64,000 nucleotides of DNA from Kocuria salsicia. GTDB lineage: Bacteria; Actinomycetota; Actinomycetes; Actinomycetales; Micrococcaceae. The DNA lies in assembly GCF_007681555.1 (NCBI RefSeq), contig NZ_VELE01000003.1:124001-188000 (forward strand), in the 5' to 3' direction. Below, in pieces: positions 11,808 through 24,483 of this stretch (its first letter is position 1; each line of letters starts with the position of its first letter). Below the pieces are notes generated by a model, which saw only the letters and a list, made by a program, of their open reading frames with translations, was not told the DNA's origin and ran no database searches. A program made the position numbers and the translations under genes.

Positions 11808-13985
11808 CTAGGTGCGGGCTGTGCCGCTGCTGTCGAGCCACTGTTCCACGGCGGCCACGGCCTCCGGCGGGGAGACCACGCCCACGTGTCCCGCGTGGCG
11901 TGTCACCAGGGAGCACAGCGCGTCCAGCGTGGGGAAGTCCACCTCTGCCGCCACGAACTCCGGAAGCGGCCGCGGACCCCGTGCCGTGCGCGGACGGGCG
12001 GGCTCGCGCGCGCCGTGGGCCGCGGCGTCGTCGTCCGCTCCCCCGGCCCCTGGCCCCCCTGTGGCCGGGGCGGGAACCTCGACCTCAACGTGCCGCTTGG
12101 CGTGGTAGTGCTCCACGATCCACCGGCCGCGGCGGTCCGTGACCACCACGGCCTGCACGGGGCGGCGCTTGGCCGGCTGGATGCTCGAGCGCACCTCGGA
12201 CTCCATCCGGGGGTGCACCTCTGCCTCCCCGGCGTCCTCGCAGCCCACGATCCGGTCCGTGCGGAACGTGCGCGGCGCGTTGGCCTGCAGGCACCACCCG
12301 CGCAGGTACTGGTGGCCGTCCGAGAAGATCATCCGCACCGGGTCCACGAGCCGCTCGGTGACCTCGTCCCGCGAGGTCACGAGGTAGCGCAGCCGCACGC
12401 GGCGCCCGTCCGCGATGGCGGCCCGCAGCCCGGTGACGAGCTCGCTGTCCCGGGGCTCCGAAACAGCGTCGGCGTCCGGAACGTCCAGCGCGTCCGCGAG
12501 CGGCAGGGCGTCCGCGGCGGTGGCGACCTTGCGCATGGCAGAGCGCACCACGCGGCTGTCACCGCCGGGAACCGCCTGCAGGGTCTGCAGCCCCATGAGC
12601 AGCGCGCTCGCCTCGGGCACGGTGAGCCGCACGGGCTCCGAGAGCTCCTGGGCGTTGCCCAGGTAGATGTGGCCGTCGTCCCAGGAGGCGTCGATCAACT
12701 GATCCGGGAGGTGGCCGGGGCGTCCGCACACGAACAGGGTCTGCAGGTCGTTGACCAGCTCCGCGTCCGTGATGCCGAAGTGCCGTGCGGTCTCCTCCAG
12801 CTCCGCACCCTGGTGCGCGTAGACGTGGCGCACGATGTGCAGCAGCCGCGCGAGGTGCTGCTCCGTGCTGGCCTTGGCCGCACCGTGGCGGCGCTGCTTG
12901 CCCCACTGCACCTGCACCCCGGACATCCGCGCCTGGAACGCGCGTGCGTCCTCGAGCCGCCGGGCCACGGCGTCCGCGACCGCCACCTGGGTGTCCTTGC
13001 CCACCGTCCCGTCCGGGTCCGCTCCCGGGGCCGGTTCGCGGGGCACGACGGCGTCCGGTCCGGCCGCGCACACGTGCTCCGCCGCGGACTCGGTGTCGTG
13101 CACCGCGAGCTGCACGGCGTCGTAGCCCTCGGGGGCCCGCCACGCGGGCGAGTCGGACGGAGCGGCAATGCGGCGCAGCAGCTGGCCCGCGCCCTGGCGG
13201 ACGTGGACCACCACGCACAGCTGCGGCGGCTGGCTGACCATGCGCGCGAGCTGACCGCCCATGGAGAAGTCCCGGGGCGGCTCGAACGTCTCGCGCGTGG
13301 TCTCCACCTCGGAGATGATGCGGGAGAGCCGGAACGTGCGCTGTGCACGCCGGTCCGTGTCCCAGCCCGCGAGGTACCAGGCTCCGTAGCGGGAGCCCAC
13401 GCCCCACGGCTGCACCGTGCGCTGGGAGAACGCCCCGGTGCGGTCCACGTAGTCGAAGCGCACCGTGCGGTGCGCAAGCACTGCCGAGAGCAGCGGCTCG
13501 AAGGCGGGGTCCGCCACGGCCACGGTGGGCTGCAGGTCCCGGCCCGGCGCCGCCTCGCCGCTGAGCGCCGGTTCGAGCTTGTCGAGGGCGCGGCGTGCGA
13601 GCCGGTCCTGGGCAGCGTCGTTCCACGCGTCCGCCGCGACGGCGAGCACCGCGGACTCCTCCGCGCTGAACCGCACCCGGGGCAACCGGTACGAGCCCCG
13701 GGGCACGCGGTAGCGGGGGGTGAGCTGCGCGTCCGAGGCCCAGGGGTCGTCGTCCGGGATCTCCTCCACCGGGTACCCGAGTGAGCGCAGGTGCGCCTTG
13801 TCGCGCTCGAACATGCGCTCGAACGCGTCCTGATTTCCGGCGCGGTCGTAACCGGGCACGATCCCGCGCAGCTGCTCACGGGTGTACCCGGACTCGCGGT
13901 CGAGCAGCGCGATCAGCAGGTTGAGGAGCCGCTCGGCGGACGCCGTGGTGGAACGGCGCGCCGAGGGTCCCGCGGAGGGCGCCAT
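11808..13985 (-). CDS. pafBC: Fused PafB-PafC WYL-domain transcriptional regulator
   Basis: 725 aa. Two HTH-WYL-WCX modules in one chain. The N-terminal PafB part (about 1-345) has a winged helix followed by a WYL region (TVRFDYVDRTG, GAWYLAGWD). The C-terminal PafC part (about 365-725) has a second HTH (EETARHFGITDAELVND) and WYL region (VRLRYLVTSRDE, HQYLRGWCLQ). In mycobacteria the separate PafB and PafC activate the LexA-independent DNA-damage response, and fused forms are known from Arthrobacter. The start ATG abuts the stop of the FKBP gene with no gap (TGA then ATG), implying translational coupling. Confidence 0.9.
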   Translation of the reverse strand: MAPSAGPSARRSTTASAERLLNLLIALLDRESGYTREQLRGIVPGYDRAGNQDAFERMFERDKAHLRSLGYPVEEIPDDDPWASDAQLTPRYRVPRGSYRLPRVRFSAEESAVLAVAADAWNDAAQDRLARRALDKLEPALSGEAAPGRDLQPTVAVADPAFEPLLSAVLAHRTVRFDYVDRTGAFSQRTVQPWGVGSRYGAWYLAGWDTDRRAQRTFRLSRIISEVETTRETFEPPRDFSMGGQLARMVSQPPQLCVVVHVRQGAGQLLRRIAAPSDSPAWRAPEGYDAVQLAVHDTESAAEHVCAAGPDAVVPREPAPGADPDGTVGKDTQVAVADAVARRLEDARAFQARMSGVQVQWGKQRRHGAAKASTEQHLARLLHIVRHVYAHQGAELEETARHFGITDAELVNDLQTLFVCGRPGHLPDQLIDASWDDGHIYLGNAQELSEPVRLTVPEASALLMGLQTLQAVPGGDSRVVRSAMRKVATAADALPLADALDVPDADAVSEPRDSELVTGLRAAIADGRRVRLRYLVTSRDEVTERLVDPVRMIFSDGHQYLRGWCLQANAPRTFRTDRIVGCEDAGEAEVHPRMESEVRSSIQPAKRRPVQAVVVTDRRGRWIVEHYHAKRHVEVEVPAPATGGPGAGGADDDAAAHGAREPARPRTARGPRPLPEFVAAEVDFPTLDALCSLVTRHAGHVGVVSPPEAVAAVEQWLDSSGTART

Positions 13986-14381
13986 TCAGCGGACGTCGAG
14001 CAGGTCCACCACGAAGATCAGGGACTCGTCCGGGCCGATCGCGGCGCCGGCGCCGCGCGAGCCGTACGCCAGCTCGGAGGGGATCTCCAGCCGACGCCGA
14101 CCACCCACCTTCATGCCCAGCAGACCCTGGTCCCAGCCCTGGATGACCTGTCCCACGCCCACCGTGAAGCCCAGCGGCTCACCGCGGTTCCAGGAGGCGT
14201 CGAACTCCTCGCCGCCCGAGTACGTGACACCCACGTAGTGGCACGAGACCGTGTCCCCGACCTTCGCCTCCCGGCCGGTGCCCTGGATCTCGTCCACGAT
14301 CCGCAGCTCGGTGGGAACCGGGTCCTGGGGGAAGTCGATCTCCGGCTTGGAACGATCAAGCTTGCGCTGTCCGAATGACAC
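13986..14381 (-). CDS. FKBP-type peptidyl-prolyl cis-trans isomerase (cytosolic)
   Basis: 131 aa, one complete FKBP domain. It catalyses Xaa-Pro isomerisation in protein folding. Typical elements are SCHYVGVTYSGGEEFDASW, the VGVGQVIQGWDQGLLGMKVGGRR active-site region, and ELAYGSRGAG near the end. No signal peptide is present. It lies 63 bp downstream of a secreted FKBP lipoprotein gene and directly upstream of pafBC. Family length and motifs are normal, so it is probably active. Confidence 0.92.
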   Translation of the reverse strand: MSFGQRKLDRSKPEIDFPQDPVPTELRIVDEIQGTGREAKVGDTVSCHYVGVTYSGGEEFDASWNRGEPLGFTVGVGQVIQGWDQGLLGMKVGGRRRLEIPSELAYGSRGAGAAIGPDESLIFVVDLLDVR

Positions 14382-14444: not shown

Positions 14445-15452
14445 TCACTTGCCGGACGCAGAGGACTCCGGGCTCGCGCTCGGCGCCGTGGACGCACCGG
14501 GGGTGGCGCTCGCCGAGGCCTGCGGGCTCGCGGTCTCCGTCTTCGGGGTGGGTGTGGTGCCGAGGATGTCCACCACGAACACGAGCGCGCCCGCGGGGTA
14601 CTGGGAGTCCTTGCCGAGCTCCTTCTCCGTGCCGTAGGCCTTGTCGGTGGGTATCACCAGCTCCACGCGCGAGCCCACCTTCTGGCCCTTCAGACCCTCC
14701 TTCCAGCCGGCGATCACACCGTTGAGGGGGAAGGAGGCCGGGGTGCCCTTCTCGTAGGAGGAGTCGAAGGACTTCCCGTCCGCCCAGCGCACGCCCACAT
14801 AGTTCGCGATCACGGTGTCCGACTCCTTGACCGTGTCACCGTCCCCCTCGATCAGCACGTCCGTCTTCAGCTCCTTGGGCTCGCTGCCGGAGGGCTTGGC
14901 GATCGTGGGGGTGCCCTTGTCGTCCTGCGTGACGTTGGGCATGCCCTTGGAGGGGGTCTTCATCTTCTCGTTGAGCGGCGGCATGATCTTCTTGGTCACC
15001 TGGTAGACCTCCACCGAGGTGGAGTCGTCCCCCTCGGAGGCCGCGCCGCTGGTCTTGGGAGAGCTGTACGCGATGATCTCCCCCTCCTTGGCCTTCGTCA
15101 GGGCGTCGTACATCTGCGGCAGGGAGTCCTTGAGCTCGTCGTTGACGGTCAGCACCTGTCCGGCACCCTGACTGTAGGTGTCCCCCAGCGAGGAACCATC
15201 CGAGCCCTTGTACAGGGCCGCCTGCAGCATGATGCTGTCGCCGGCGTGGATCTCCTCACCGTCCCCCTCCTTCAGGACCTTGGTCTGCGCGTCGTCCACC
15301 TTCAGGGGGGTCTCGAAGGACACCGACGGCGCGGTGCCCTCCGAGGGGTCTGCGGACAGTTCCACGGAGTCCCAGCCCGAGCCCCCGCCGCAGCCGGTCA
15401 GCAGCAGGGACAGGGCGAGCGCGGCGGTGCCGGCGGGGATGATCTTTCGCAC
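14445..15452 (-). CDS. FKBP-type peptidyl-prolyl isomerase lipoprotein, two FKBP-like domains
   Basis: 335 aa. The signal peptide ends in a lipobox (SLLLTGC) with the lipidated cysteine near residue 23, so it should be anchored outside the membrane. A first FKBP-like domain (about 55-165) lacks the usual GWxxGL active-site stretch and looks degenerate. The second (about 205-300) is canonical (NYVGVRWADGKSFDSSYE, IAGWKEGLKGQKVGSR). The tail is Ser/Ala/Pro-rich. The GTG at 15452 is preferred, with AAAGG 10 nt upstream. An ATG at 15473 has no ribosome-binding site. It probably folds exported proteins. Confidence 0.85.
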   Translation of the reverse strand: MRKIIPAGTAALALSLLLTGCGGGSGWDSVELSADPSEGTAPSVSFETPLKVDDAQTKVLKEGDGEEIHAGDSIMLQAALYKGSDGSSLGDTYSQGAGQVLTVNDELKDSLPQMYDALTKAKEGEIIAYSSPKTSGAASEGDDSTSVEVYQVTKKIMPPLNEKMKTPSKGMPNVTQDDKGTPTIAKPSGSEPKELKTDVLIEGDGDTVKESDTVIANYVGVRWADGKSFDSSYEKGTPASFPLNGVIAGWKEGLKGQKVGSRVELVIPTDKAYGTEKELGKDSQYPAGALVFVVDILGTTPTPKTETASPQASASATPGASTAPSASPESSASGK

Positions 15453-15556: not shown

Positions 15557-16966
15557 TCAGGCGCGTCCGGAGGTGATCTCCGCGATCAGCCCCTCGACGT
15601 CCGGCTGGGTGGTGGCGAAGGGGTCCTTGCACATGACCGTGCTCTGCTGGTGCTCCCCGTTGAGCTTCAGGTGCACCCAGTCCACGGTGGTGCTGACCCC
15701 GGCGTCGTGGGCCGCGGCCACGAACCGCCCGCGCATCTGCGCCCGGGTGGGAGGGCCTTCGACGACGGCGCGCTCGACGTCCTGCGGGGTCACGAACGTC
15801 TCCACGGCACCGCGGCGCTCCAGCATGTGGAAGAGTCCGTGGCGCGCGGAGGTGTCGTGGTAGGCGAGGTCCAACTGCGCCATGCGGGGGTGGGACCAGT
15901 CCATCCCGTGGGCGCTCGCGTAGGAGTCCAGCAGCTTCTTCTTGATGGCCCAGTCCAGCTCGCGGTCCACCAGCGCGCTGTCCTGCTCCTCGACGGCCCG
16001 CAGCCCGCGGTCCCACAGACCGAGGACCCAGTCGAGGCGGTCGTGGTGCGCGCCGTGGCGCTGCACGAACCGGGTGACCTCCTCAAGGTACTCGCGCTGC
16101 AGTTCGATCGCCGAGCGGTGGCCCCCCGCGGCCAGCTCCAGCGGTGCCAAACCGGTGAGGTCGTGGGAGACCTGCCGCAGGGCGGCGGCCGGGTCCGCGA
16201 GCGTGCGGTCCGGCAGGATCTGGCCCGCCTCGATCATCCGCAGCACCGCGTCCGTGATGCCGATCTTCAGCGCCGTGGTGGTCTGGGACATGGACGAGTC
16301 GCCCGTGATGACGTGCAGCCGGCGGTAGCGCTCGGCGTCCGCGTGCGGTTCGTCCCGGGTGTTGATCATGGGGCGGGAGCGGGTGGTGGCCGAGGACGAC
16401 CCCTCCCACACGTGGTCCGCCCGCTGGGAGAACGAGTAGCCGGGGCGCCCGTCCCCCAGGGCCAGGGAGCCGAAGGACGGCGGCCCGTCCGGGTGCACCC
16501 GGCCCGCGCCCACGAGGATCTGCCGCGTGACCAGCAGCGGCAGCAGGTGCTGGACCAGCCGGGAGAACTCCGTGCGGCGGGCAATCATGTAGTTCTCGTG
16601 CGAGCCGAACGAGTTGCCTGCGGAGTCCGCGTTGTTCTTGAACAGGTGCACCGTGCCGCCCACGCCCTCGGCGTCCAGGCTCTCCTGCAGCTGGGCGCGC
16701 AGGTCGTCCACGATCCGTTCGCCGGCGGCGTCCTGGGCGACGACGTCCTGCAGGGTCGCAGCCTCTGCCGTCGCGTACTCGGGGTGGGAGCCCACGTCCA
16801 GGTACAGGCGCCCGCCGTTAGGCAGGAACACGTTGGAGGCCCGCCCCCACGCGAGCACCGGTGCGAACAGCCGCCGCGCCGTCTCGTCCGCACCCAGGGG
16901 ACGGCCCTGCGGTGCGCTGTGGGTCAGTCCGAACTCGGTCTCGATCCCGTAGATGCGCCGTTCCAC
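15557..16966 (-). CDS. pafA: Proteasome accessory factor A, Pup-protein ligase
   Basis: 469 aa. An ATP-dependent carboxylate-amine ligase that joins the C-terminal glutamate of Pup to substrate lysines. It carries the family signatures: N-terminal RIYGIETEFG (nucleotide/metal binding), LYLDVGSHPEYATAE with the catalytic Asp, NNADSAGNSFGSHENY, and INTRDEPHADAERYRRLHVI. Length matches the family. The start lies 4 bp after the pup stop codon, so the two are co-translated. In other actinobacteria prcB and prcA commonly lie between pup and pafA; here nothing does. Confidence 0.96.
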   Translation of the reverse strand: MERRIYGIETEFGLTHSAPQGRPLGADETARRLFAPVLAWGRASNVFLPNGGRLYLDVGSHPEYATAEAATLQDVVAQDAAGERIVDDLRAQLQESLDAEGVGGTVHLFKNNADSAGNSFGSHENYMIARRTEFSRLVQHLLPLLVTRQILVGAGRVHPDGPPSFGSLALGDGRPGYSFSQRADHVWEGSSSATTRSRPMINTRDEPHADAERYRRLHVITGDSSMSQTTTALKIGITDAVLRMIEAGQILPDRTLADPAAALRQVSHDLTGLAPLELAAGGHRSAIELQREYLEEVTRFVQRHGAHHDRLDWVLGLWDRGLRAVEEQDSALVDRELDWAIKKKLLDSYASAHGMDWSHPRMAQLDLAYHDTSARHGLFHMLERRGAVETFVTPQDVERAVVEGPPTRAQMRGRFVAAAHDAGVSTTVDWVHLKLNGEHQQSTVMCKDPFATTQPDVEGLIAEITSGRA

Positions 16967-16970
16967 GCCG

Positions 16971-17177
16971 TCACTGACCGCCCTTCTGGACGAAGCCCTT
17001 CACGAAGGCCTCGGCGTTGGTCTCGAGCACGCCGTCGATCTCGGCGAGCAGGTCGTCCGTGCCCCGGGTGTCGTGCTGGGCCTGGGCGGCCCCGGACGAC
17101 GGCGGGGTGGCCGGCGCGGGTGCGTCCGGCTCCTCCTCGCGGCGGGACCCCGTGCCGAAGATGCGTTCCTGTGCCAT
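16971..17177 (-). CDS. pup: Prokaryotic ubiquitin-like protein Pup
   Basis: 68 aa. The intrinsically disordered N-terminal half (QERIFGTGSRREEE) is followed by the conserved helix region DDLLAEIDGVLETNAEAFVK, which binds the ARC/Mpa coiled coil, and the C-terminus FVQKGGQ. Because it ends in glutamine, Dop must deamidate it before PafA can use it. It lies between dop and pafA with a 4-bp gap to pafA. The Shine-Dalgarno is GGAGGAG, 5 nt before the ATG. Confidence 0.97.
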   Translation of the reverse strand: MAQERIFGTGSRREEEPDAPAPATPPSSGAAQAQHDTRGTDDLLAEIDGVLETNAEAFVKGFVQKGGQ

Positions 17178-17327
17178 GTCTCCTCCTGTGTGCCCGGGAT
17201 TCGTTCACCCGGACGTGTCCGTTCGTGTCTGCGTGCGTCTCTTGTCCGGTGGTGCGTGTGCCCGCGTGCCACCCGGCCTGCCGGTGGTCGCTCGTGCGGC
17301 CGCGCCGTCCCTGTGAGCGGCACCGGG

Positions 17328-19037
17328 TCAGTCGGTGCTGCTGCCTGTGACCAGTCCGGGGCGGTGCCGGGCCACCTGGGCCACCCACTGCTCGGCGTCC
17401 GGGGCGGTGAACCAGTCTCCGCTCACCTTCCGGGTGAGGTCCCCGGGCTCGGGCATCGCGATCCGTGCGCCGCGGCGCACCCCGGGGAAGCTCACGCTCA
17501 CGGTGTCCCACCCCACCCCGGCCATTGCCTCCGGATAGGTGGCCACTGCGGTGCCGCGGAACCACGCGCGGGTGTCCACGGGAGGGGTGTCCGCGGCGTC
17601 GACGATCCGGGCGTGGTCCACGAGGGTGCGGATCCGCCCGCCCGCCGCGAGCCGGTGGTAGAGGCCCTTGTCTGGCCGGACGTCCGCGTACTGCAGGTCG
17701 ATGGCGAGCAGCCGCGGGTCGTCCCAGGACATCGCGTCCCGGCGGCGGTAGGCCTGCAGCAGGGCGTACTTGGCGGCCCAGTCCAGGCGGTCGGCCAGCT
17801 GGGCCGGGTCCGCGGCGAGGCCCGTCAGCACCTCGTCCCACAGTTCGAGCACCTGCGCGGTGTCCGGGTCCAGTCCGTCCGGGGCGAGCTCGGTCTCCAG
17901 CTCCAGGGCCGCCCGGTGGTACTCGCGCTGCAGCTGCACGCCCGTGAGCTCGCGGCCGTCGCGCAGGGGCACGGTCGTGGCCAGGGACGGGTCGTGGCTG
18001 ATGCTCTGCAGGGCGGCCACGGGGTCCACGAGGTCCAGTTCCGGGACACGGTCGTGCTCCACGAGGTTCAGGACGAGCGAGGTGGCACCGAACTTCAGCA
18101 GGGTGGCCGTGTGGGAGAGGTTGGCGTCTCCGATGATCACGTGCAGCCGGCGGTAGCGGGCGTCGTCCGCGTGCGGTTCGTCCCGGGTGTTGACGATCGG
18201 CCGGTGGATGGTGGTCTCCAGCCCCACGGTGCGCTCGAAGAAGTCCGCGCGCTGGCTGAGCTGGAACCCGGGCCGGGAGCCGTCCGTGCCGATCCCCACG
18301 CGTCCGGCCCCGCAGACCACCTGGCGGGACGCGAAGAACGGCAGCAGCGCCGCGGTGATCCGCTCGAACGGGACGTCTCTGGAGACCGTGTAGTTCTCGT
18401 GGGCCCCGTAGGAGACGGACTTGTTGTCCGTGTTGTTCTTGTAGAGGTTCACGGGCGCGCCCTGCCCGGAACCCGCGGCGAGGAAGTCCACAGCCCGGTG
18501 CGCCACCACGTCCCCCGCGGCGTCCCATGTGAGGGCGTCGAGCGGGTTCGTGACCTCCGGGGAGGAGTACTCCGGGTGGGAGTGGTCCACGTAGACCCGC
18601 GCGCCGTTGGGGATCACGGTGTTCATGACCACCCGGCGCCAGTCCATGTCCTCCGCGTACAGCGCGGACTCCTGGATGGCCTCCGCGGCGATCTCCTCCG
18701 CCGTGAGCTCCGGGGCGCTGTCCGTGAGCTGCGAGGGGTGGGCCGCTTCCCGGTCCACCGTGAAGCCGCGGGCGTCCGTGAGCGGGGCCTCGGAGCCGTA
18801 GTCCCACGCGGTGCCCAGCGGGGCGTCCTGCGCCCCCGCACCGTGCTGGTCGGCGGCAGCACCCGGCCGGGTTGCCTCCCCATTCCGATGAGTGGCGGCC
18901 GTGCGGTGCTGGCGTGCGACCCAGGCGGCGTAGCCGGTCACCACGCGCGTCGAGAGCACCGTGGGGTTGGCCCCCGGCTCGCCCTGGGCCAGCACGCCGA
19001 ACTCCGTCTCGCTGCCCATGATCCTGCGCACCGTCAC
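17328..19037 (-). CDS. dop: Deamidase of Pup / depupylase Dop
   Basis: 569 aa, longer than most Dop proteins (about 500). It deamidates the Pup C-terminal Gln and also removes Pup from substrates. Signatures: RIMGSETEFGV, VYVDHSHPEYSSPEV with the catalytic Asp, NNTDNKSVSYGAHENY, and VNTRDEPHADDARYRRLHVI. Extra length comes from a low-complexity stretch after residue 35 (RQHRTAATHRNGEATRP) and from a loop. The GTG start at 19037 overlaps the arc stop (GTGA), so translation is coupled. Other in-frame starts are GTG 19031 and ATG 19019. Confidence 0.94.
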   Translation of the reverse strand: MTVRRIMGSETEFGVLAQGEPGANPTVLSTRVVTGYAAWVARQHRTAATHRNGEATRPGAAADQHGAGAQDAPLGTAWDYGSEAPLTDARGFTVDREAAHPSQLTDSAPELTAEEIAAEAIQESALYAEDMDWRRVVMNTVIPNGARVYVDHSHPEYSSPEVTNPLDALTWDAAGDVVAHRAVDFLAAGSGQGAPVNLYKNNTDNKSVSYGAHENYTVSRDVPFERITAALLPFFASRQVVCGAGRVGIGTDGSRPGFQLSQRADFFERTVGLETTIHRPIVNTRDEPHADDARYRRLHVIIGDANLSHTATLLKFGATSLVLNLVEHDRVPELDLVDPVAALQSISHDPSLATTVPLRDGRELTGVQLQREYHRAALELETELAPDGLDPDTAQVLELWDEVLTGLAADPAQLADRLDWAAKYALLQAYRRRDAMSWDDPRLLAIDLQYADVRPDKGLYHRLAAGGRIRTLVDHARIVDAADTPPVDTRAWFRGTAVATYPEAMAGVGWDTVSVSFPGVRRGARIAMPEPGDLTRKVSGDWFTAPDAEQWVAQVARHRPGLVTGSSTD

Positions 19038-20893
19038 CGTGCACCACCCCGCAGGGCATCCAAACCGGTCGCCGAACCGGCGGCGGAGCCGTCCGCCGAA
19101 CCGGCCGCTGAGCCCGTGCCGGAGCCAGTTTCCGATCCGGTGGACCCATCAGTCGAGGACGCGGTCGAGGATGCTGACGCGAGCGCGCCCTGCTCCGTGG
19201 CATCACCCTGCACCGGGGTGTGCCGCACGATCCGCACGTCCTGGAACGTGTCCGCGCGGCGTCCCGTGAGCCGGGCCCAGTCCTCGGCGTCCCCCGTGTT
19301 CGGCAGGTCCTGCTGCTCGTGGAACTCCTCGTCCACCGCACGCACCAGGTGCTCAGCGGTGAGCCCGCGCCGCCCGGTGGTGAGAAGGGTCTTGATCGCC
19401 TGCTTCTTGGCGCGGTCCACCACGTTGCGGATCACCGCGCCGGACGCGTAGTCCGCGAAGTAGAGGGTCTCCTGCGAACCGTCCTTGTGGGTGATCGTGA
19501 GGAACTCGGTGTCCGACACCCGCGCGTACATGCGCTCCACGGCGGCCCGGACCAACTCCTCGGCGGCGGCCGCGCGGGAACCGGCGCGGGCGACGTCGTC
19601 CTCCCGCAGCGGGAGGTCCTCGGTGACGTAGAGCGAGAAGATCTCGCGCGCCCCCTCGCGGTCCGGGCGGTCGATGCGGATCTTCACGTCCAGGCGTCCG
19701 GGGCGCAGCACGGCGGGGTCGATCATGTCCTCACGGTTGGTGGCACCCACGACCATGACGTTGTCGAGCTTCTCCACGCCGTCGATCTCCGTGAGCAGCT
19801 GCGGCACGATCGTGGTCTCCACGTCCGAGGAGAGCCCCGAGCCGCGGACCCGGAACAGCGAGTCCATCTCGTCGAAGAACACGACCACGGGCACGCCCCG
19901 GGCCGCCTGCTCGCGCGCGTTGGCGAAGATCGAGCGGATCTGCCGCTCCGTCTCCCCCACGTACTTGTCCAGCAGCTCGGGGCCCTTGATGTTCAGGAAG
20001 TACCCCTCGGCCCGCGAGCGCCCGGCCTTCGCGGCGCTGCGCTCGGCGAGGGAGCGGGCCACGGCCTTGGCGATCAGTGTCTTGCCGTTGCCCGGGGGCC
20101 CGTAGAGCAGGATGCCCTTGGGCGGGTGCAGGCCGTGCTCGCGGAAGATCTCGGGGTGGATGTGGGGCAGCTCCACGGCGTCGCGGATGGCCTCGATCTG
20201 GGGGCCCAGCCCGCCGACGTCCGAGTAGCTGACGTCCGGGACCTCCTCCAGCACGAGCTGCTCGACGTCCGTGCGGGCCACGGGCTCCAGGGCGAAGCCG
20301 GTGCGGTGGTCCACGGTGACGGCGTCGCCGGGTTTTGGGCGCTCGCGGCGCAGCCTGCCGGAGAGCAGCAGCACGCGCTCCTCGTCCGAGCGGCCCACAG
20401 TGAGGACGCGGTCGTGGTCCACCACTTCCTTGACGGTGGCGACCTCCCCGGTGCGCTCGTAGTCGAGCACCGCGACCACCACGTAGTTCTCGTTGAGCAG
20501 CACCCCGAGGCCGGGTTCGCACGCGCCCAGAGAGACGAGGGGGCTCAGTGCCACGCGCATCCGACGCCCGGCCGCGAGCACGTCCACGGTGGGTCCGGTG
20601 ACCACGGGGCCGTCCCCGGTGGCCTCTCCCACCGGCTGCCTGCCGTGGTTGACCTGCAGGATCGTGGCGAACGTGGCGGGCGGCTCGGCCTCCGCAGCCA
20701 GGGTCTTCTTGAGCGTCACGATCTCCTGGCGGGACGCGTTGAGCAGCCGCACCAGCTTCTCGTTCTGCGAACCCAGGGCGCTGAGCTGCTTGTCGAGGTT
20801 GCGCTTCTGGTCCCGCAGCATGGCCATCTGCCGCTGCACGATCTCCTCCGACGAGCGCTGGGGCCGCTGCTGCGGGTGGGGTGCCTCAGACAT
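19034..20893 (-). CDS. arc: AAA+ ATPase ARC (Mpa homologue) of the pupylation pathway
   Basis: 619 aa. A hexameric AAA+ unfoldase that recognises Pup. The N-terminal coiled coil (about 14-65, EEIVQRQMAMLRDQKRN) binds Pup. Two OB-type subdomains follow. Walker A GPPGNGKT is at 265-272 and Walker B VFFDEMDS around 341. The last 60 residues are Ser/Gly/Ala/Thr repeats ending LRGGAR. There is no GQYL-like tail, the motif that docks Mpa onto the 20S proteasome. The ATG at 20893 (GAGGAG 4-5 nt upstream) overlaps trmI. A GTG at 20917 is a weaker alternative. Confidence 0.95.
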   Translation of the reverse strand: MSEAPHPQQRPQRSSEEIVQRQMAMLRDQKRNLDKQLSALGSQNEKLVRLLNASRQEIVTLKKTLAAEAEPPATFATILQVNHGRQPVGEATGDGPVVTGPTVDVLAAGRRMRVALSPLVSLGACEPGLGVLLNENYVVVAVLDYERTGEVATVKEVVDHDRVLTVGRSDEERVLLLSGRLRRERPKPGDAVTVDHRTGFALEPVARTDVEQLVLEEVPDVSYSDVGGLGPQIEAIRDAVELPHIHPEIFREHGLHPPKGILLYGPPGNGKTLIAKAVARSLAERSAAKAGRSRAEGYFLNIKGPELLDKYVGETERQIRSIFANAREQAARGVPVVVFFDEMDSLFRVRGSGLSSDVETTIVPQLLTEIDGVEKLDNVMVVGATNREDMIDPAVLRPGRLDVKIRIDRPDREGAREIFSLYVTEDLPLREDDVARAGSRAAAAEELVRAAVERMYARVSDTEFLTITHKDGSQETLYFADYASGAVIRNVVDRAKKQAIKTLLTTGRRGLTAEHLVRAVDEEFHEQQDLPNTGDAEDWARLTGRRADTFQDVRIVRHTPVQGDATEQGALASASSTASSTDGSTGSETGSGTGSAAGSADGSAAGSATGLDALRGGAR

Positions 20894-22091
20894 GACGCTC
20901 CTCGTCCAGCCGCTCACCGGCCACGGTCGGGTGCGCGGCCGAGGCGCCCCGGGTGTCCTGGGTGCTCGAGGTGTCTGGGGACGACGACGCGCTTTCCGTG
21001 GCGTCGTCGCTGGCGGTCACCACTGGGTGCCTGTCCGACTCCGCGCGACCCTCGGAGATCTCGCGGTCCGCGCGGGCGGCGTGCTGGGCCAAAGACGTTG
21101 CGTCGCGCCCGGCGCGACGGAGCTTCTTGTCGGAGACCACGCGCTCGCCCAGGGCCACCGGGGTCCAGGCCTGCAGGTCCTCCTCGGTGTACTCGCTCTT
21201 CGATGCGCGCCGCTTCGGTGCGAGCCGGGGCGAGCCGTCGGCAAGGCGGCGGGACTGGATCAGGAAACCGGTGTGGGCGACCATGCGGTGGTCCGGGCGC
21301 ACCGCGAGCCCTTCCACGTGCCAGCCTCGAACCATGGTCTCGGAGGCCTCGGGCTCGGTGAAGCGCCCGTCAGCGCGCATGGCCTCGGCCACGCGGGAGA
21401 GCTGCGGCACGGTGGCCACGTAGCAGATCACCACACCACCGGGGGCCAGCGCGGTGGCCACGGCGTCGAGGCACTCCCACGGTGCGAGCATGTCCAGCAC
21501 CACGCGGTCCACGGAGCCCGGCTCCTCGTTCTCCCCGAGCTCCTCGGCGAGGTCGCCCATGCTCAGGTGCCACGCGGGGTGCGGGCCGCCGAACATGGTC
21601 TCGATGTTCCCGCGCGCGATCTCGGCGAACTCCTTGCGGCGCTCGAAGGAGCGCACGTGGCCCTCGTCCCCCACTGCCCGCAGCAGCGAGATGGTGAGGG
21701 CGCCGGAGCCCACGCCGGCCTCGACCACGCGCGCCCCGGGGAAGATGTCCGCCATCGCCACGATCTGCCCGGCGTCCTTCGGGTACACCACGGCGGCTCC
21801 GCGCGGCATGGACAGCACGAAGTCCTTGAGCAGGGGGCGCAGCGCCTGGTACTGGATGCCCGAGGTGTTGGTCACCACCGTGCCCTCCGGCCGCCCGACC
21901 AGCAGGTCGTGGCCGAGGACCCCGCGGTGGGTGTGGTGCTCCCCTCCATCCACCAGGGTGATGGTGGTCATCTTCCCGCTCTCGTCCGTGAGCTGGACGC
22001 GCTCACCGGAGCGGAACGGACCGCGCCGGTTGGCGGCGCCGCGCACCGGGGCGGGGGTCACGGGGATGTCTCGGGGCTGCTGCTGGGTCAT
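20886..22091 (-). CDS. trmI: tRNA (adenine(58)-N1)-methyltransferase TrmI
   Basis: 401 aa. A tetrameric SAM-dependent enzyme making m1A58 in the T-loop of tRNAs. The N-terminal beta domain (GPFRSGERVQLTDESGKMTTI, HHTHRGVLGHDLLVGRPEG) precedes the Rossmann domain with SAM motif VVEAGVGSGALT and RSFERRKEF. The C-terminus is extended by about 80 acidic, Ser/Asp-rich residues beyond the family core. It is the first gene of the pupylation block and overlaps arc by 8 bp, the same order as in Mycobacterium (trmI then mpa). Confidence 0.92.
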   Translation of the reverse strand: MTQQQPRDIPVTPAPVRGAANRRGPFRSGERVQLTDESGKMTTITLVDGGEHHTHRGVLGHDLLVGRPEGTVVTNTSGIQYQALRPLLKDFVLSMPRGAAVVYPKDAGQIVAMADIFPGARVVEAGVGSGALTISLLRAVGDEGHVRSFERRKEFAEIARGNIETMFGGPHPAWHLSMGDLAEELGENEEPGSVDRVVLDMLAPWECLDAVATALAPGGVVICYVATVPQLSRVAEAMRADGRFTEPEASETMVRGWHVEGLAVRPDHRMVAHTGFLIQSRRLADGSPRLAPKRRASKSEYTEEDLQAWTPVALGERVVSDKKLRRAGRDATSLAQHAARADREISEGRAESDRHPVVTASDDATESASSSPDTSSTQDTRGASAAHPTVAGERLDEERHV

Positions 22092-22176
22092 CTGCTCACT
22101 TTCACACCTGCTCGACGATGACGGCGGGTGCCGCCCGTCCTCGGCCCGCCGCACTGCCGTGCCGGGGCCTCTTCTC

Positions 22177-22190
22177 ATTCTCTCACCGTA
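22177..22190 (-). promoter_or_regulatory. Candidate promoter of the trmI-arc-dop-pup-pafA operon
   Basis: On the minus strand TACGGT (22190-22185) and GAGAAT (22182-22177) are both possible -10 hexamers, about 85-95 nt before the trmI ATG. No clear -35 is visible. This is the only larger gap upstream of the block, so the main promoter should be here, but which hexamer is used cannot be decided by eye. Confidence 0.3.
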
Positions 22191-22321: not shown

Positions 22322-23503
22322 TCAGCGGTGCAGCGCGTGGCGCACGAGGTCCTCGTGGTGCACGACCCCCGTGACCGGGGCGACGTCGTCGGCCACCCAC
22401 ACCCACTGCAGCCGCCCGGCCTCCAGCTGCCGCGCGAGTTCGCCACCGGGGGTCCGCGGGGCGACCACCGCGTCCGCCGGGTACCACTGACACACGTCCC
22501 CCAGTGCCACGCGGGAGCGCTCCGGCAGCGGCACGCGGGCCGCGAGTGCGGGGTCGAGCACGCCGAGGGTGCCCCGGGCCGCGTCCCGGGCGACCACGTC
22601 CGGCGTCCAGCCGCGGTAGTCGTCCCCGGTGGCCGCCGTGACGGTGGCGTCAACGAGCGAGAGTGGGGTGGCGGGCGTGAACTCCATGGCGGGGCGGGCG
22701 ATCTCCTCCGCCCGCACGGAGTCGAGCCGACCCATCAGCCGCGCCTGCCGCAGTGCCTGGCCGGCACCCGCGACGATGAATGTGACGACGAGCAGCGAGA
22801 CCACGAGCACGGCGGGCTGGCGCCACTGCTGCGTCCACACGAGCCACAGCACCAGCAGCGCGGCGATCCCCCGTCCGCACCACGCGGACACGGCCGTGCC
22901 CCGCCACTCGGAGCCGGTCACCGTCCACACCACGGCCTCGACCACCCGGCCGCCGTCCAGGGGCAGGCCCGGCAGGAGGTTGAACAGTCCGAGCACCCAG
23001 TTCGCGATCACGAGCAGCTGCGCGAGTGCCCACCAGGGCCCGGTGGCCCCGGCCGGTGCGGCAGCGAGCAGGACCTCGCCGAGGACCGCGAGCGCCACGT
23101 TGGCCAGCGGGCCGGCGAGGGAGACCAGAGCGGTGGGCAGGGGTCGGGTGCGCACGGTGCCGAACGTGGTGTGACCGCCCATCAGGGTGAGCACGATCCG
23201 GTCCACGGGCCACCCGGCGCGTCGCCCGGCGGCCGCGTGCGCGAGCTCGTGTGCGAGCACGCTCACCGCCAGGCCCACGGCGAAGCCCAGCGCCACCACG
23301 AGGTTCAGCCACCCGAGGTCCGGGTACACCCGCCACAGCACCGGGCCGTACATCACCACGGTCAGGCCCGCGATCAGGAACCACGAGCGGTCCAGACGGA
23401 CCTCCACGCCGAGCACCCGGCCCAGGCGGACCCCGCGAGAGCGGCGCGGGCGCCCCGCGGGTGAGGAGGCGGCGTCGGGGGCGGGGAAGCGGGGATCGGC
23501 CAT
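22322..23503 (-). CDS. M50 family site-2 protease-like zinc metalloprotease
   Basis: 393 aa. A polytopic membrane protease of the S2P/SpoIVFB type that cuts transmembrane substrates. The zinc-binding HELAH is at residues 85-89 within a hydrophobic helix, and the second ligand motif NLLPGLPLDGGR follows near residue 180. Five or six membrane helices are visible. The C-terminal 130 residues resemble a degenerate CBS-domain pair (VWVADDVAPVTGVVHHEDL). There is no Shine-Dalgarno before the ATG at 23503; an ATG at 23512 is possible. The substrate is unknown. Confidence 0.87.
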   Translation of the reverse strand: MADPRFPAPDAASSPAGRPRRSRGVRLGRVLGVEVRLDRSWFLIAGLTVVMYGPVLWRVYPDLGWLNLVVALGFAVGLAVSVLAHELAHAAAGRRAGWPVDRIVLTLMGGHTTFGTVRTRPLPTALVSLAGPLANVALAVLGEVLLAAAPAGATGPWWALAQLLVIANWVLGLFNLLPGLPLDGGRVVEAVVWTVTGSEWRGTAVSAWCGRGIAALLVLWLVWTQQWRQPAVLVVSLLVVTFIVAGAGQALRQARLMGRLDSVRAEEIARPAMEFTPATPLSLVDATVTAATGDDYRGWTPDVVARDAARGTLGVLDPALAARVPLPERSRVALGDVCQWYPADAVVAPRTPGGELARQLEAGRLQWVWVADDVAPVTGVVHHEDLVRHALHR

Positions 23504-23574
23504 GGTGCACATGGTAAGTGGGCCACCCGGCACCGGGCTGGGTGGCCGTCGTGGAACCGCCGGGACGGGCGCCG

Positions 23575-23580
23575 TACAGT
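23575..23580 (+). promoter_or_regulatory. -10 hexamer of a leaderless PAC2 transcript
   Basis: TACAGT followed by exactly 6 nt and the GTG start at 23587. This is the spacing of leaderless actinobacterial promoters, where transcription starts on the start codon. Confidence 0.6.
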
Positions 23581-23586
23581 GGAGCG

Positions 23587-24483
23587 GTGAGCACATCGCA
23601 CAGCAATGCGGAGCAACCCGGCACCGGTCCCTTCGGAGTGGTGCGTGACGGTCGGGAGCAGGAGACCGTCACGGTCCTCATCGCCGCGTTCGAGGGCTGG
23701 AACGACGCCGGGGACGCCGCAACCGACTCTCTGAAGCTGATCCGCGAGCACCTCGGGGCCAAGGAGGTCTTCGAGGTCGAGTCGGACGACTACTACGACT
23801 ACCAGTACTCGCGGCCCATCATCCGGCGTTCACTGACCGGGGAGCAGAAGCTGCACTGGCCCAGCACCCGGCTGACGAAGGCGAGCGTGGCGGGCACGAA
23901 CCTCGACGTGGTCCTGCTGCACGGCTGGGAGCCGTCCTACCGGTGGCGGACCTTCACGGCGGAGCTCATCGAGCAGGCCACCGCACTGGACGTGGACTTC
24001 GTGATCATGCTGGGCTCCCTGCTCGCGGACGTCCCCCACACGCGCCCCATCCCCGTGACTCTGACCTCGGACACCGAGGAGTTGCGGGAGGAGCTCGAGA
24101 TCGAGGCACCCCAGTACGAGGGCCCCACGGGCATCGTGGGGGTGCTCTCCCACATGGCCGCCCTCGCGGGCTTCCCCACGCTGAGCATGTGGGCCGCCGT
24201 GCCGCACTACGTGGCGCACTCGCCCTCCCCGAAGGCCCAGCTCGCGTTGCTGCGCCAGCTGGAGGACCTGCTCGGCATGTCGTTGCCCCTGGAGCCGGTG
24301 GTCGAGGATGCCGAGGCGTGGGAGCGCGGCGTGGACGAGCTCGCCTCCGAGGACCCGGAAGTCGCGGACTACGTCCGGCAGCTCGAGGAGGCCAAGGACA
24401 CCGTGGACCTCCCGGAGGCCACCGGGGACGCGATCGCGCGCGAGTTCGAGCGCTACCTGCGCCGCCGCGACGACCGCAAATGA
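23587..24483 (+). CDS. PAC2 family protein
   Basis: 298 aa. The PAC2 family is related to eukaryotic proteasome assembly chaperone 2. In actinobacteria its function is unproven. The sequence shows a Rossmann-like start (VLIAAFEGWNDAGDAATDSL), the conserved HGWEPSYRWRTF and a LGSLLADVPHTRP segment, then YEGPTGIVGVL. The start is the GTG at 23587, placed by the leaderless -10 TACAGT. It lies beside mshC and uppP, an order also seen in the mycobacterial proteasome neighbourhood. It is retained here although no 20S proteasome genes lie in the locus. Confidence 0.87.
   Translation: MSTSHSNAEQPGTGPFGVVRDGREQETVTVLIAAFEGWNDAGDAATDSLKLIREHLGAKEVFEVESDDYYDYQYSRPIIRRSLTGEQKLHWPSTRLTKASVAGTNLDVVLLHGWEPSYRWRTFTAELIEQATALDVDFVIMLGSLLADVPHTRPIPVTLTSDTEELREELEIEAPQYEGPTGIVGVLSHMAALAGFPTLSMWAAVPHYVAHSPSPKAQLALLRQLEDLLGMSLPLEPVVEDAEAWERGVDELASEDPEVADYVRQLEEAKDTVDLPEATGDAIAREFERYLRRRDDRK

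Follow-up and report, generated by a model that had tools for sequence, protein, structure and literature searches.

Pup systems of actinobacteria have been described with and without the 20S proteasome core. The ring ATPase Mpa/ARC is reported to bind the 20S core through a C-terminal GQYL motif and a hairpin loop (ANGDK in Mycobacterium tuberculosis), and the hairpin docking element is described as not conserved in species without 20S (PMC8755798). In Corynebacterium glutamicum, Pup, PafA, Dop and ARC are reported without core subunits (PMC12288473), the ARC hairpin is said to have lost its 20S contacts (PMC8755798), and a case involving ferritin has been described (PMC8223512, PMC12288473). 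According to a 2019 review, about half of sequenced actinobacteria lost the core genes prcB and prcA (prcBA) yet retained pupylation (PMC6466877). A further account describes the loss for a subset of species, leaves other proteasome-independent roles of pupylation open, and names Micrococcus luteus as one of those shown in its locus figure, in a legend whose wording does not state which of them are without prcBA (PMC8223512). Here we analyse a Pup locus of Kocuria salsicia in a stretch of 64,000 nucleotides (the window; contig NZ_VELE01000003.1, positions 124,001 to 188,000), in which no 20S genes lie between pup and pafA. The locus is a member of a known and common class; C. glutamicum, which an earlier reading of the sequence alone (the sequence-only reading) had named as the known precedent, is not a lone one. 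Judged by its gene content and conserved residues, it is probably an actinobacterial Pup system that has lost its 20S core and serves the remodelling, disassembly or reversible activity change of several clients, not proteasomal degradation.

Gene content of the locus and search for a 20S core

The minus strand of the window carries trmI, arc, dop, pup and pafA as one series. The arc/mpa gene for the AAA ring ATPase (19034-20893; TIGR03689, 738.6 bits with a cut-off of 504.75; alignment to Mpa chain 5kwa) is taken from its ATG at 20893, the mechanical open reading frame (ORF) opening at a GTG at 20917. Its stop overlaps by 4 bases the start of dop, the gene of the Pup deamidase/depupylase (17328-19037; TIGR03688, 587 bits; aligned to 4b0r). 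From the dop stop to the pup start are 150 base pairs (bp; 17178-17327); pup itself (16971-17177; PF05639, E 6.3e-19; TIGR03687) encodes 68 amino acids ending in VQKGGQ, and is followed, after a 4-bp junction (16967-16970), by the Pup ligase gene pafA (15557-16966; TIGR03686, 630.2 bits; aligned to 4b0t and 4bjr). All four Pup genes exceed the cut-offs of their NCBIfam equivalog models, and the Pfam matches agree. The order arc-dop-pup-pafA, the two gaps and the lack of prcBA between pup and pafA had been given in the sequence-only reading, and proved exact to the base when compared with the sequence and the family models.

The 4-bp junction is the site of prcB and prcA in 20S-bearing relatives: in all 8 of the 20S-bearing family members fetched (L109-L111, L123-L127), pup and pafA are separated by these two genes, and the flanks are the same. 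The window thus shares with the complete system, represented by Mycobacterium and by Arthrobacter and Sinomonas loci in the family, the order trmI-arc-dop-pup-[prcB-prcA]-pafA-FKBP-pafBC seen in the fetched relatives, but its genome is without prcBA, Bpa and the ARC docking features. Among the characters of a degradative Pup-proteasome, then, pup, pafA, dop and ARC/Mpa were found, and prcBA, GxYL, the hairpin and Bpa were not; of the protease-free C. glutamicum type, the gene-level characters were found (Pup, PafA, Dop, an ARC with its motor motifs kept, conserved active-site residues where aligned, no 20S and an encoded ferritin).

A search of the whole genome for prcA, prcB and other HslV/20S-like proteases, proposed as a check on the sequence-only reading, found none. 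The assembly, 99.96% complete with 3.06 Mb in 50 contigs, contains no match to PF00227, the 20S/HslV family, nor does any of 27 Kocuria genomes, this one included, of which two are only 76 and 79% complete. As controls, E. coli and B. subtilis matched PF00227 through what we take to be HslV-type members, and C. glutamicum showed a Pup match and none to PF00227. Pup was present in 26 of the 27 Kocuria genomes, the exception (G174) being 76% complete, and in 25 of the 25 good ones. An assembly gap as the cause of the missing prcBA was ruled out by the completeness of the genome, the lack of matches throughout the 27 genomes and a junction with no room for a remnant.

Bpa (PF10759) likewise had no match in the genome. 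In a survey of the order, one even draw of 159 genomes, PF00227 was found in 99, Pup in 147 and Bpa in 78, every Bpa-bearing genome being also 20S-bearing; 48 of the 147 Pup-bearing genomes show no 20S. Bpa is said to occur in every 20S-bearing species (PMC8223512). Of the 99 20S-bearing genomes in the survey, 21 gave no PF10759 match; a divergent Bpa could escape the model.

Docking features and motor of ARC

The window ARC has neither of the known 20S docking features and retains those of a motor. Its alignment to Mpa reaches about residue 554, beyond which a low-complexity tail ends in LDALRGGAR, so that the C-terminal GQYL/GxYL docking motif is absent; the hairpin reads KDGSQ in place of ANGDK, the acidic residue missing. 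Walker A, Walker B and the pore-loop residues are retained.

The same loss extends well beyond this genome. The survey of ARC ends covers every one of the 48 no-20S genomes of the order and 28 of its 99 20S genomes, with 7 more of the genus g12 treated below, and the best 80 of 592 named loci, which may repeat genomes of the Kocuria set. A GxYL end was found in none of the 48 no-20S order genomes, the 25 other Kocuria or the 14 no-20S loci among the best 80; it was found in 23 of the 28 sampled 20S order genomes, the exceptions being L114 and four of genus g12, and in all 52 of the best-80 20S loci whose ARC end lies inside the stretch. The acidic hairpin residue is present in 75 of 75 20S rows when g12 (0 of 11) and L114 (Glu) are set aside. 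It is present in 12 of 84 no-20S rows, 11 of the 84 being gapped there and the rows not being independent, as named loci may duplicate Kocuria genomes.

Some further observations concern ARC. The Walker A sequence GPPGCGKT is found in 25 of 28 20S ARCs, and its Cys is often replaced in genomes without 20S (by Asn in 37 of 70, the window included, at about 20072-20105 on the minus strand). Loss of ARC itself was considered for three genomes with no ARC in the stretch (G152, G137 and G098) and rejected, since ARC was found elsewhere in each. G137 (f3 g63; L336, L102) has arc and dop on a different contig from pup and pafA; it has no 20S match in its genome, yet its ARC ends in RDYL, the Tyr-Leu being kept.

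Pup, PafA and Dop

PafA aligns near full-length to 4b0t and 4bjr, presumably both C. glutamicum chains, and retains the Asp in RLYLDVGSHPEY (Asn in chain 4bjr). Dop retains YVDHxHPEY in its alignment to 4b0r, and is present in 47 of the 48 no-20S order genomes, the exception being G098 (90% complete). A Pup with a C-terminal Glu occurs in 13 of these 48 genomes, in 2 of 32 sampled 20S genomes and in 6 of the 65 20S loci among the best 80, and Dop is present in every such case (13/13, 2/2 and 6/6). As Pup-Glu needs no deamidation, the keeping of Dop supports depupylation as its retained function in those lineages, an argument also made for Pup-Glu species in an earlier account (PMC12288473), and would thereby support a reversible cycle. 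Dop-loop length was considered as a marker of the no-20S state and showed no clear difference between groups; the motif pair looked for was located in only 19 of 48 no-20S genomes, 24 of 25 Kocuria, 27 of 32 20S genomes and 61 of the best 80 named loci.

Distribution and phylogeny

The best matches among the 80 named loci are Kocuria. Fourteen of the 80 are without prcBA (Kocuria 6, Rothia 5, Micrococcus 1, Glutamicibacter 2) and 65 have prcB, an incomplete row (L215) being set aside. A quick tree was built from the Pup genes themselves (LG+G4, with support from the Shimodaira-Hasegawa-like approximate likelihood ratio test, SH-aLRT, only; long-branch warnings were given). It drew on the 48 order genomes that have no 20S, on 32 of the 99 that do, and on 8 of the 14 named loci without prcBA and 10 of the 65 with prcB; with five rows dropped (L090, L102, L120, L141, L245) and L108 left out, it has 93 rows. 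The window clusters with two Kocuria loci (100% support) within a 10-row no-20S clade, also with 100% support, formed by the window, Kocuria, Rothia and Micrococcus loci and three other family members. In this tree, Kocuria, Rothia and Micrococcus thus share the no-20S state as a single clade, with Glutamicibacter placed apart. Micrococcus and Rothia also share the arrangement of the locus (Micrococcus L193 and the five Rothia loci, all without prcBA), and no substantive difference from the window was found. Over the whole tree at least six changes of the 20S state are needed, a count from which gain and loss are not distinguishable. For G098, where the other sampled family members are 20S-bearing, both the no-20S state and the missing Dop may be assembly gaps. 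A search of the literature on pupylation across five genus names gave no relevant paper among the 20 listed of 238 matches. In G151, a second ARC-Pup-PafA locus with no Dop in the stretch (L108/L106) stands besides the normal one.

Function of the system

On these sequence data, the simplest and most likely reading is a cycle of tagging, unfolding and untagging without a docked protease. Dop would convert Pup-GGQ into Pup-GGE, PafA would join Pup-GGE to lysines, ARC would bind Pup and pull on or unfold the tagged protein with no docked protease to receive it, and the tag would be taken off by Dop. We infer that the enzymes are functional, that there is an unfold-and-release step and that several clients are served. 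The sequence-only reading had suggested that pupylation is used here for reversible tagging or disassembly; this fits the lack of a 20S/HslV match, an ARC without docking features, the absence of Bpa and the keeping of Dop.

Several observations weigh against this cycle. ARC could possibly dock a protease through another surface, and Glu is still found at the hairpin site in 4 of the 25 other Kocuria. The argument for untagging relies on lineages other than Kocuria, as every one of the 26 Kocuria Pup sequences read (the window and 25 others) has a C-terminal Gln; Dop is then necessary for deamidation, and its retention in the genus is no evidence for untagging. There are also signs that some relaxation of constraint is possible. 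The ratio of nonsynonymous to synonymous substitution rates (dN/dS) of TrmI is 0.137 (19 sequences), below those of the four Pup genes, and PafA diverges 1.88 times as much as TrmI in Kocuria versus 1.22 times in 20S-bearing family members. No such rise is seen for Dop (1.96 versus 1.98).

The explanation that comes second, which we consider unlikely, is that the system serves specifically to disassemble pupylated ferritin and free its iron, as in C. glutamicum. A ferritin role is possible in this genome, which encodes one non-heme ferritin (L143) besides one Dps. L143 matches PF00210 with 114.1 bits, its best NCBIfam model is that of non-heme ferritin, at 88 bits and below the cut-off of 178, and a PDB search with it returned mostly generic ferritins. 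Taking ferritin as the Ftn/BfrB/Bfr type, and with the survey of iron stores confined to PF00210, a query with one ferritin protein picked out relatives in 12 of the 48 no-20S order genomes. The remaining 36 comprise 30 with a single PF00210 match (29 Dps, 1 ferritin-like) and 6 with none, so that 35 of the 48 pupylating no-20S genomes show no ferritin. Nor is ferritin tied to the no-20S state, since this query is also positive in 47 of the 99 genomes that have 20S. Within Kocuria, ferritins of two types (13 and 6) occur in 19 of the 27 genomes, and 8 have Dps only, seven of these being at least 94% complete. The C. glutamicum precedent invoked in the sequence-only reading therefore remains applicable to this genome, but ferritin disassembly is not the general reason for the retention of Pup; the iron role of ferritin has been shown in C. 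glutamicum, whereas here only the ferritin gene is seen. In the literature searched, no comparable ferritin count came up, though one may exist. With ferritin present in some of its species and absent from others, and Pup in all its good genomes, Kocuria could help to separate protease-free pupylation from degradation and from ferritin.

Slightly less probable again is that a different protease (ClpP1P2, FtsH or some other) receives the pupylated proteins from ARC, in which case pupylation would still be degradative. The genome does encode at least one other candidate for an ATP-dependent protease, as ORF L318 reads as FtsH, with an AAA domain and HEGGH, which we take to be the FtsH motif. However, ARC tails vary widely among Kocuria species, and with C-termini thus unconserved no substitute docking peptide shared among them is seen. 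Of the nine genes scanned in the surroundings of the locus, just one belongs to a peptidase family, that of an M50 peptidase (22322-23596), which is not known to have a link to ARC. A second AAA protein of the Cpa/Cdc48 kind was also considered and rejected; apart from arc, TIGR03689 matches a single ORF of the genome, which reads as FtsH, no Cpa-specific model having been searched.

That the locus is a decaying relic without function is very improbable: the faster divergence of PafA than in 20S-bearing relatives is what such decay might leave, but the four genes are intact with their motifs conserved in this genome, Pup is kept across the good Kocuria genomes and the 48 no-20S order genomes through at least six state changes on the tree, and arc, dop, pup and pafA, with median dN/dS of 0.29-0.34 in Kocuria, well under 1, are by this measure under purifying selection.

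ARC in 20S-bearing relatives

In a single-genus family (f6 g12), all 11 genomes sampled have both 20S and Bpa, and all 11 ARCs (L115, L116, L117, L130, L319-L325) are without GxYL and without the acidic hairpin residue; an NSDLV or NSDLL end is common to 6 of them. Bpa of this genus (L326-L332) keeps a docking end, GNYL, in 7 of the 7 sequences read. Pupylation and the 20S core may thus be split within the same cell in this genus. A different combination is found in G062 (L114, f11 g42), sister to a no-20S group: prcBA and the catalytic Thr are kept, PrcB is divergent, Bpa is absent, and ARC is without GxYL but keeps the acidic hairpin residue. By their sequences, g12 and G062 look like stages in which ARC was uncoupled from 20S before prcBA was lost, although the Tyr-Leu end of the G137 ARC, in a genome without 20S, indicates that the order of steps need not be uniform. 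A literature search gave no report of a split between ARC and 20S with Bpa retained, which does not prove that there is none. More broadly, pupylation might be a tag-unfold-untag machine of its own, separable from the proteasome and not bound to ferritin. It is retained in several lineages that have no 20S and, for the most part, no ferritin, and in g12 the two systems appear to be split already; we hold the chances for and against this wider view to be about even.

Neighbouring genes

The gene upstream of arc encodes a trmI-type tRNA methyltransferase (20886-22178, minus strand; PF14801, PF08704), which overlaps arc by 8 bases and has the same position in many relatives. Downstream of pafA on the same strand follow two genes of FKBP-type isomerases (14445-15449 and 13986-14381; both PF00254) and that of a fused PafB-PafC-like WYL regulator (11808-13985; PF19187, and PF13280 in two stretches). 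A promoter scan gave 0 sites and a terminator scan 3 where 1.5 were expected; as these lie on the plus strand, none belongs to the Pup genes. Neither Rfam models nor a tRNA scan gave a match in the window. On the plus strand near the Pup locus, a gene at 23518-24483 encodes a protein of the PAC2 family, which is related to eukaryotic proteasome assembly chaperones; it is found here despite there being no 20S to assemble.

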